Shown here piece after piece: positions 5,342 to 60,032 of a stretch of 64,000 bases of DNA (position 1 is the first letter of the stretch; the number at the start of each line of letters is the position of its first letter). The notes under the pieces are model-generated. The model was not told the origin of the DNA. It made no database searches and worked only from the letters and a program-made list of their open reading frames with translations. Source of the DNA: Candidatus Woesearchaeota archaeon CG10_big_fil_rev_8_21_14_0_10_37_12 (GTDB lineage Archaea; Nanobdellota; Nanobdellia; Woesearchaeales; ARS49); NCBI GenBank assembly GCA_002762795.1, contig PCYA01000018.1, forward strand, positions 1 through 64,000, given 5' to 3'. The position numbers were made by a program, and so were the translations under genes.

Positions 5342-5464
5342 TAGGCAACTTTGAATTTGTCAGTTTTTTGGTGAATGGCGTGAACGCCCTGTGATTTTTG
5401 TCGTCGATATTCAAAGTTGGCTTAGGAAACTTTGACTCAATTTCAATAGTTTTTCAAAGTTCCC
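5342..5464. repeat. Two-arm palindromic intergenic element (copy A)
   Basis: GGCAACTTTGAAT...ATTCAAAGTTGGC followed by GGAAACTTTGA...TCAAAGTTCCC; near-identical arms recur at 21100-21321 and partly at 19620-19742. Confidence 0.8.
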
Positions 5465-6290: not shown

Positions 6291-6522
6291 ATCCGGAGCT
6301 CTGCTCTCCGGTGTGATTTTTATTGCAAAGTTCGCAGGACTTTGCACTGGGGTTTAAAACCCCGCCCAGCTGGAAGTTGGAGACTTCCAGCTTGCTCAGA
6401 AAATTACACACCTATATGATTTTTGTAATTTTCTGACATTTAGGGCGAACTTTACAAGTAGAAAAACGCACGATAAAATACCCCGACCTTCAGGTCGGGG
6501 AATAGTGCATTTTTCTTTATTT
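6291..6522. repeat. Composite nested palindromic element with REP-like hairpins
   Basis: TCCGGAGCTCTGCTCTCCGG, ATTGCAAAGTTCGC...GGCGAACTTTACAA, GGGGTTTAAAACCCC, AGCTGGAAGTTGGAGACTTCCAGCT, CAGAAAATTAC...GTAATTTTCTG, CCCCGACCTTCAGGTCGGGG; outer frame shared with 24911-25043. Confidence 0.85.
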
Positions 6523-19614: not shown

Positions 19615-20110
19615 GTCTTTGGGTAATTTTGAATGTAGATGATAACCATATCAGAGCGTCACGCTACTCATCAGAAGCATACTGATTCAAAATTACCCTA
19701 GGAAACTTTGACTTTTTTGGATAGTTTTTCAAAGTTTCCTTTGGGTTCAAAACACGTAAACTTTACGCACTGTTCTGTAATTATTCCGTACAAATTACCG
19801 CAAGGCTCTTTAAACGCTAAAAATTCCACTATTCCGATGAAAATCAAAGATTTTCAGCGTGCAGCGAAAAATGTATTTTTCGCGCACAGAAAACCTCAAG
19901 GTTTTCTTGTGCCAAAAATCTCCGATTTTTTAGCATATTGATGGTGGTTTACTACGTAAACCACAGTTACATAGGTGAAATTTTGGCGTGCTCAAGCCAA
20001 GAAAATGCTTTGCATTTTCTGGCCCAGAAAATCCTTTGGATTTTCTTGGGAACCACGGAGTCATTACAGTAAAGATGAAGCTATTGCTTCATGCCACTCG
20101 TCTATTGACG
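19615..20110. repeat. Array of at least 8 consecutive short hairpins with two-arm palindrome (copy B)
   Basis: GAAAATCaaaGATTTTC, GAAAAATgtATTTTTC, AGAAAACCtcaAGGTTTTCT, AAAAATCtccGATTTTT, GTGGTTTactacgtAAACCAC, AAAATGCtttGCATTTT, AGAAAATCCtttGGATTTTCT, TGAAGCtattGCTTCA. Confidence 0.85.
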
Positions 20111-20145
20111 GGTGGTTCTTGACAAAACAATATCTTGTGCAGGAA

Positions 20146-21099: not shown

Positions 21100-21321
21100 G
21101 CAACTTTGAATTAGTCATTTTTTGGTGAATGGCGTGAACGCCCCATGATTTTTGTCGTCGATATTCAAAGTTGGCTTAGGAAACGCAAGAAAACTCTGGT
21201 TTTCTGCGCAACAAAAAACACTGTTTTTTGTGCACACATAAATCTTTGATTTATGTTGCGCCCAGAAAATTTTAAATTTTCTTGGGCTTTGACTCAATTA
21301 AGATAGTTTTTTAAAGTTCCC
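21100..21321. repeat. Two-arm palindromic element (copy C) with a 103-bp four-hairpin insertion
   Basis: Matches copy A (5342-5464) on both sides; insertion 21185-21287 interrupts GGAAAC|TTTGACTCAA and contains AGAAAACtctgGTTTTCT, CAAAAAACactGTTTTTTG, ATAAATCtttGATTTAT, AGAAAATTTtaAAATTTTCT. Confidence 0.85.
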
Positions 21322-24644: not shown

Positions 24645-25970
24645 ATGTTTCAAACAAGGAATTTTAACAAGTCATTAATTCACATTGTAAGTTTGTTTGG
24701 GTTGATTACGCTTGTTGAGGGTATTTTGTGGTATTTTATGCCGTTGTATTTTGAGTCAAAATTGCAGAATTTGTTTCTTGTTGGTGTTTTGATTTCTATT
24801 CACCCGTTCGCGTCGTTGATTGTGAGTTTGCCTACTGGTGATTTGTGTGATAAAATTAGCAGAAGGTTTGTTTTCATTCTCGGCTTGCTTGGTTTTACAA
24901 TGGCGTTCTTTTTATTGCAAAGTTCGCAAGAACTTTGTAGAGGGGTTTAATACCCCTCCATTTAGGGCGAACTTTGCAAGTAGAAAAACGCACGATAAAT
25001 ACCCCGACCTTCAGGTCGGGGAATAGTGCGTTTTTCTTTATTGTTTGTTGATAATTTTTTTGCGTTGTTGTTTTTTATGATTTTTTATGGGTTTTTTTCA
25101 ACAATGTATGGTATTAGTGCTTTTGTTTGTTTTTTGGATCATGCGCGTTCGCATGTTATTGGCGAGTCTGCGGGTTTGTTTACCTCGATCCAGTATGCGG
25201 GTTGGTTTTTTGGGACGTTTCTTGGCGGAGTTTTGTTGTTTGTGTTTGATGCAGGAGTGATATTGAAGCTTCTTGTGTTAATTTTGATTTTTCTTTCTGC
25301 GCTTGCCATTTTCTTTTTTCCTGGTAAAGCAGAGTTTAATTTTAAAGAAGTGATACTTGCAGAGCATATTCTTGCGAAAGATGGGTTTGTTGTTGGTGAG
25401 CTTAAGTCTATTTCTGTGTTGGGTAAGCCGTTAATATCGTTGTTGTTGTTTTCTTTTGCGTTGGGTTTTTGGGAATATACTATTTGGACGTTTGAACCGA
25501 TTTATGCGAATAGTTTGGGAAGTGGTTTTGTGCTTGGTGCAGTGATTTTGTGTTTGACGACATTGCCAGGAATGGTCTCGGGGTTTTTCGCTGGCAAGCT
25601 TGTTGATTTTTTTGGTGAGAAAAAAATGCTTGTGTTAGGAGCTGTTCTTGTTGTGCTTGGTCAAACAATTTTTCTTTTGAAACAGAATTTATTGTTGCTT
25701 GGAATATCCTTAGTTATTACGTCTGCTGGGGCTATTTTTATTTTGATTCCGTTGAGTTGTTACCAGAAAAAGTATGTGAGTAAGAAATTGCGCGGTGAAG
25801 TAAGCGGGACTGCTGATGCGTGTTATAGTATTGGCGGCATCCTTGGCCCGGTAGTTATTGGTGCATCACTCACGCTTGTTGATCTGAGCCAATTGTTTTA
25901 TTTTACGTCATTTATTTTTTTGATCGCAATTTGTTCTTTAGTGCTTATGAAAGATTTAAAATTCAGTTAA
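24645..25970 (+). pseudogene. MFS transporter interrupted by a 126-bp palindromic element
   Basis: ...GFTMAFFLL | element | FVDNFFALLFFMIFYGFF...; both halves are in the same frame, with four stop codons inside the element. Confidence 0.85.
24911..25043. mobile_element. Non-autonomous nested palindromic element inserted in MFS gene
   Basis: Perfect 13-bp IR TTGCAAAGTTCGC/GCGAACTTTGCAA, then AGAAAAACGCAC...CCCCGACCTTCAGGTCGGGG...GTGCGTTTTTCT; flanked by TTTATTG on each side. Confidence 0.8.
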
Positions 25971-59918: not shown

Positions 59919-60032
59919 TGGGCCCGAGGAGATTTGAACTCCCGACCACTGGTGGGCTTAGTTCTTGTTGGCTTTTTGTTTCCAGCAAGTGTCATATAAG
60001 ACCAGCGCTCCACCAGACTAAGCTACAGGCCC
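59919..60032 (-). tRNA. tRNA-Ile(TAT) with ~40-nt intron
   Basis: RC: GGGCCTG TA GCTTAGTCTGGTGGAGC G CTGGT CTTATA|TGACACTTGCTGGAAACAAAAAGCCAACAAGAACTAAGCC|C ACCAG TGGTC GGGAG TTCAAAT CTCCT CGGGCCC A. Confidence 0.85.

Follow-up and report, generated by a model that had tools for sequence, protein, structure and literature searches.

The 103-bp segment that interrupts one copy of a palindromic element in our window (the whole 64,000-nucleotide stretch of DNA that was analysed) is best read as two hairpin pairs, an outer one of 51 bp and an inner one of 52 bp that sits in the middle of the first next to a TGCGC repeat, and not as one array of four hairpins. Judging from sequence comparison, we consider it probable, at about three chances in four, that these are two copies of a non-autonomous mobile element of about 45-57 bp, consisting of head-to-head hairpins, which would move as a unit and produce arrays by nested, inside-out growth. 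The window belongs to a 1.35-Mb archaeal genome (G000; 19 contigs, 99% complete, a draft assembly of the metagenome type), whose Kae1 protein has Candidatus Woesearchaeota among its nearest named relatives, at 54-55% identity. An earlier, sequence-only reading had proposed that 5342-5464 and 21100-21321 share one element, the second copy having exactly 103 bp inserted between GGAAAC and TTTGACTC. We recovered both copies, the first at 5345-5464, and the insert, 21185-21287, has precisely this length (Table 1). Folded as the stretch 21186-21288, it reaches -35.3 kcal/mol, far more stable than 200 shuffles (-16.3 +/- 2.95; z -6.4), and 0/200 of these folded as well, so chance is a very poor explanation of its structure; by itself, the uninserted element at 5345-5464 is only weakly structured relative to shuffles (z -1.5). 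The four consecutive hairpins of the sequence-only reading do appear as four separate hairpins in the best-energy fold, although they belong to two nested pairs of 51 + 52 bp and not to one array. The complementarity of the GCGCAAC and GTTGCGC linkers is real, but the best-energy fold does without that outer stem. Taken together, the halves of the canonical outer pair, GCAAGAAAACTCTGGTTTTCTGCGC and CCAGAAAATTTTAAATTTTCTTGGGC, make 51 bp, and the centre formed by joining them, TTTTCTGCGCCCAGAAAA, is found uninterrupted elsewhere, in G007, G043 and G471. The inner pair recurs in loci L002 and L007 and in a second element, B (L022/L052), where it is also central in the usual pair (L022).

Table 1. 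Features of elements A and B and of the hairpin pairs within the window
Feature	Position	Strand	Remarks
Element A, interrupted copy	21100..21321	+	two palindromes, GCAACTTTGAAT...ATTCAAAGTTGGC and GGAAAC...TTTGACTC...AAAGTTCCC
Element A, uninserted copy	5345..5464	+	CTTTA direct repeat on both flanks
Element A, uninserted copy, strongly diverged	19621..19739	+	most diverged copy in the A tree
103-bp insert, best read as two nested hairpin pairs	21185..21287		between GGAAAC (21179-21184) and TTTGAC; TTTGACTC from 21288
Outer pair, '+' hairpin	21185..21209		GC-A-AGAAAAC..GTTTTCT-GC; ends in direct repeat TGCGC (21205-21209)
Inner nested pair	21210..21261		47 nt + second TGCGC (21257-21261) = 52 bp
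Outer pair, '-' hairpin	21262..21287		CCC-AGAAAAT..ATTTTCT-T-GGG
Element B, second mobile palindromic element with two hairpin arrays	19809..20124	+	from sequence comparison
Hairpin array in loop of B left palindrome	19835..19935		holds GCGAAAAAT/AGAAAACC pair, arms GTGC-GCAC-GTGC
Canonical +- pair in B at CTCAAG^AACCAC	19996..20050		CCAAGAAAATGC..GGCCCAGAAAATCC..CTTGGG

Is the pair a definable unit? The sequence-only reading depended on further hairpin arrays turning up in the genome, and with arrays parsed as hairpins of stem at least 6 and loop 3-5 (stretches of G000 totalling 464 kb, plus loci) we found 48 of them in the 464 kb, whereas a first-order shuffle gave 4. Each hairpin has an outer arm of 3-6 bp, one unpaired base and an inner stem. 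The unpaired base is an A on the 5' side in 51/63 hairpins of the '+' type and a T on the 3' side in 50/64 of the '-' type (distinct arrays, all sampled genomes), and a one-base bulge with outer arm is rare among isolated hairpins (29/548). Consecutive oriented hairpins follow the order +- 44 times and -+ twice (p 3e-11), with orientation assigned by a strict score; a tolerant score, allowing wobble and trimming, blurred + and -. The oriented consensus is (N)NNC-A-[AGC][GC]AAAA-tip-loop. The stem motif is CAAGAAAA/TTTTCTG, with a tip that is variable yet complementary: among hairpins picked by CAAGAAAA..TTTTCTG, pairing between the two not being required, tip pair 1 is complementary in 88/89, with all four pair types represented, and tip pair 2 in 77/89, so the structure is kept while the sequence changes. 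The most frequent departure from pairing is a T-G mismatch. Outer arms vary (GCAC, GTGC, GTAC, CCC, CGC, GCC) and form no fixed tag. By these sequence features the pair is a definable unit, namely two oppositely oriented hairpins, each having a single unpaired A (or T). A further regularity concerns the linker of the GCGAAAAAT../AGAAAACC.. pair, which is GCAC when the flanks are GTGC..GTGC and GTAC when they are GTAC (or TAC)..GTAC, that is, the reverse complement of the flanking repeat; the TGCGC case fits at 3/4 positions. This match could reflect guide:target pairing or a later correction of the palindrome.

The host of the 103-bp insert, element A, is a miniature mobile element, a miniature transposon with inverted ends and short target duplications. 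It is built of the palindromes GGCAACTTTGAAT..ATTCAAAGTTGGC and GGGAACTTTGA..TCAAAGTTCCC, its outer ends are inverted repeats, and direct repeats of about 5-6 bp (CTATAG, CTGTAG, CTTTAG, CTTAA) flank many copies. The genome-wide search of G000 that the sequence-only reading had suggested returned 68 matching pieces and, beyond the two copies first noticed, a total of 19 complete and distinct ones (20 parsed rows, one of which repeated the L028 copy from a second start). Thirteen of them are empty and six are filled at the identical junction AAC^TTTG, so that states before and after insertion do coexist in one genome, as had been claimed. The six inserts measure 51, 51, 54, 58, 103 and 103 bp, and the first hairpins of those of 51-58 bp have three unrelated stem sequences, each of them complementary. 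The insert breaks a stem that is continuous without it, and the copies that have diverged most (L028, L030 and the one at 19621 in the window) are all uninserted with the stem intact, which agrees with the earlier claim of insertion into a palindromic element and goes against an ancestral 103 bp. In the A tree, where support inside the family is low, the filled copies form no single clade and the two 103-bp copies fall in different parts, so either the array came to the same site twice or the copies exchanged it. Among 39 genomes of relatives the palindromes of element A occur in G000 only, matches elsewhere being to the hairpin array alone, and a pattern scan of the genome contig collection gave no match, so the element is narrow in distribution.

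Element B, which is unrelated to A, provides what on comparison is a clean before-and-after view of the same nested event as in the 103-bp insert. The state before reads TTTTCTGGGCCAGAAAA (L051); the state after (L022) reads TTTTCTGGGC, 54 bp ending in TGGGC and then CAGAAAA, i.e. TTTTCTGGGC[..]TGGGCCAGAAAA. The two are equal except in the stem tips, and TGGGC is repeated. Empty copies of B read CTCAAGAACCAC; in filled ones a hairpin pair separates CTCAAG from AACCAC, and in some copies the loop of the left palindrome holds additional arrays. A third family from another genus, E, also has empty and filled copies (54-55 bp, junction AGAA^), and in it a second pair divides the stem CAAACTTT..AAAGTTTG. 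G021 has the whole E element, which the orthologous site of G007 lacks, and an imperfect direct repeat of some 14 bp accompanies it. We also observed, at L032 1340-1640 of G021, an element of about 240 bp between genes, with the imperfect 14-bp direct repeat CACCATCTKTTTTT and no element at the orthologous site of G007; other G021 copies of it have different flanks. One more palindromic family was seen in the window at 6300-6520 and 24903-25045 (GCGTTTTTC..TTGCAAAGTTCGC.. with a CCCCGACCTTCAGGTCGGGG hairpin), its right part being 96-98% identical; the copy at 6330 has extra hairpins that the copy at 24903 does not, which suggests hairpin insertion into a palindrome here as well.

The pair is conserved across the class. 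The exact pattern CAAGAAAAN{3,12}TTTTCTGN{1,5}CAGAAAA was found in 17/359 genomes of the order, with a maximum of 38 matches in one genome, and the exact unit motif in 20/380 genomes of an even phylum sample, including other orders of the class, both counts being lower bounds from which variants escape (for example most of those of G032 and G023). A reversed control pattern gave 0 matches in the same genome sets. Draft assemblies make up most of the sampled genomes, and some arrays abut gaps; we noticed runs of N, that is assembly gaps, directly beside hairpin arrays in L004, L008, L029 and L042 near 5020, and array counts in draft genomes are probably too low. Insertion into a gene is documented for RsmE of G007 (Pfam Methyltrans_RNA), which carries an in-frame 57-bp pair. 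RsmE of the same-genus species G021 is without exactly these 57 bp, as are six further homologues (one from G000), so that with the outgroups empty the insertion is derived and the pair was not deleted elsewhere. The empty RsmE site has no palindrome. Pairs read through in frame were also seen in the C-terminal tail of eL31 (G023, L118 18538-19050, minus strand) and in a DUF357 protein (G007, L089 8498-8857, plus strand).

How might such arrays arise? A pair would enter as a unit, often where another palindrome has an arm or a loop, the centre of a pair already in place being one such site, and repeated central insertion would build arrays from the inside out, like a Russian doll. The first event at 21185 would have been the entry of a 51-bp pair into element A, at the junction AAC^TTTG; another pair would then have entered the central linker of this one, leaving the 5-bp direct repeat TGCGC; and element A, with its target duplications of about 5-6 bp, may carry the array onward. 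Outermost pairs show no target duplication and nested pairs one of 4-5 bp, so one mechanism may not account for the two kinds alike. Within G000, hitch-hiking on A and B makes up part of the spread, and there are therefore fewer independent insertions than copies. We infer that some enzyme transposes single-stranded or cruciform hairpins, with hitch-hiking on A, B and E. By analogy with REP and IS200-type hairpins, hairpins of single-stranded DNA would be what this trans-acting enzyme recognises, and the unpaired A or T would mark orientation. More tentatively, and with the odds rather against it, the pairs might form a class-wide archaeal double-hairpin family that inserts by palindrome recognition, picks its site by linker-target pairing and has a mobilising enzyme unrelated to Y1 transposases.

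The nearest known parallel would make the pairs archaeal REP/REPIN-type elements, moved by RAYT-like Y1 transposases of the IS200/IS605 family that have been lost or lie on another replicon, and this we regard as unlikely. Bacterial REP dimers, BIMEs and REPINs are short hairpins, some of them bulged, whose inverted pairs are the mobile unit (PMC3733652, PMC3116915), and some REP dimers sit inside longer palindromes (PMC3733652). The archaeal pairs share this layout of inverted, bulged hairpins (PMC3116915, PMC3733652), with the inverted pair as the unit (+- 44 vs -+ 2) in intergenic and sometimes intragenic positions, and the complementarity between internal linker and flanking repeat is reminiscent of guide:target pairing. 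However, they lack the GTAG-type tetranucleotide at the hairpin foot, as well as a CGTC tag, and they differ in their highly variable stem tips and arms, their nesting in their own centre and their DPANN hosts. Moreover, a Y1 (HUH, PF01797) gene was absent by Pfam from G000, complete to 99%, from G032, a single contig, and from G001, G007, G021, G065, G068 and G172. The repeat-flanked Y1 gene is thus missing from G000 and most carriers, and archaeal Y1 proteins have been reported in the plain IS200 subclass only (PMC6006769). Pairs lay near Y1 at just 1/14 loci examined. This exception, in G010, has two GC-richer +- pairs (ACGGAAC..GTTCCGT; L072 1272-1313 and 2728-2765) on either side of the Y1 gene and is the best candidate for an archaeal REPtron-like locus. 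No TnpB gene was found in G000 either.

Other explanations do without a transposition unit. Could template switching on quasi-palindromes during replication create the hairpins, keep them perfect and match arms to linkers, with no transposition enzyme involved? It would account for linkers that covary with the flanking repeats, for near-perfect stems with variable tips and for insertion that favours palindromes already there. Yet it would remove the lone unpaired base, whose identity and side are preserved from one family to the next, and it explains neither the CAAGAAAA/TTTTCTG motif common to different orders nor the new in-frame pair in RsmE, whose empty site has no palindrome; it is quite improbable as the origin of the pairs and may be a secondary, homogenising process. 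Slightly less probable again is that the arrays are functional RNA structures, for example terminators or processing signals at the ends of genes, which selection would have spread and kept. Stems rich in T on both strands could serve to end archaeal transcription, 3/5 arrays of G032 lie between convergent genes, and T-G is the commonest departure from pairing. In G000, however, the gene context of the arrays (tandem 17, divergent 7, convergent 5) is the same as the background (188, 95 and 67), and a terminator role is not supported there; arrays also occur inside other mobile elements and in frame inside coding sequences, and an Rfam search of the window matched rRNA and tRNA only, none of the arrays. 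One of these matches, a tRNA at 59919-60032 (minus strand), is 114 nt long, longer than a plain tRNA, was missed by ARAGORN in its bacterial setting and probably contains an intron. Least probable by far is that the 103 bp are ancestral and were deleted from the shorter copies. Such deletion would fit the coexistence of both states and the scatter of filled copies in the A tree; against it stand the emptiness and intact stem of the most diverged copies, the differing insert lengths (51, 54, 58, 103) at one junction and, for RsmE, the outgroups without the pair. Mobility of the pair as a unit remains the reading that we prefer.

Several further systems invite comparison. CGTC-tagged REPs and Rickettsia palindromic elements are short palindromes, found also as dimers and in genes, with no dedicated transposase known (PMC3733652). 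In-frame insertion into a gene (RsmE, with outgroups) is common to them and the archaeal pairs, whereas the latter have neither the CGTC tag nor a CCA tail and instead a C-A-AGAAAA base with one unpaired A. Mitochondrial double-hairpin elements, repetitive hairpin-forming elements and yeast GC clusters are hairpin mobile units as well, some of them double, in intergenic and genic positions (PMC2800124, PMC2670323). The archaeal pairs, too, are two adjacent hairpins inserted as a unit, but the hosts of the mitochondrial elements are organelles. To our knowledge, a fixed unpaired A or T with head-to-head order is not a feature of the mitochondrial elements or GC clusters. PATEs, palindrome-associated MITEs of IS200/IS605, are archaeal, palindromic and non-autonomous; G000 differs in having neither a Y1 nor a TnpB gene. 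Integron attC sites, whose box consensus is RYYYAAC/GTTRRRY, were considered and rejected, as no cassette arrays surround the elements and their ends, by inspection, do not fit that consensus. In the open-access literature searched, we found no comparable hairpin-pair element for DPANN archaea.

If confirmed, the pair would be a compact element with insertions that can be dated, are nested and here and there lie in frame in conserved genes, and its carriers would be small genomes that mostly lack the transposase expected as its mover. With it one could test what mobilises REP-like palindromes in the absence of a RAYT, a question that stands equally for the CGTC REPs.
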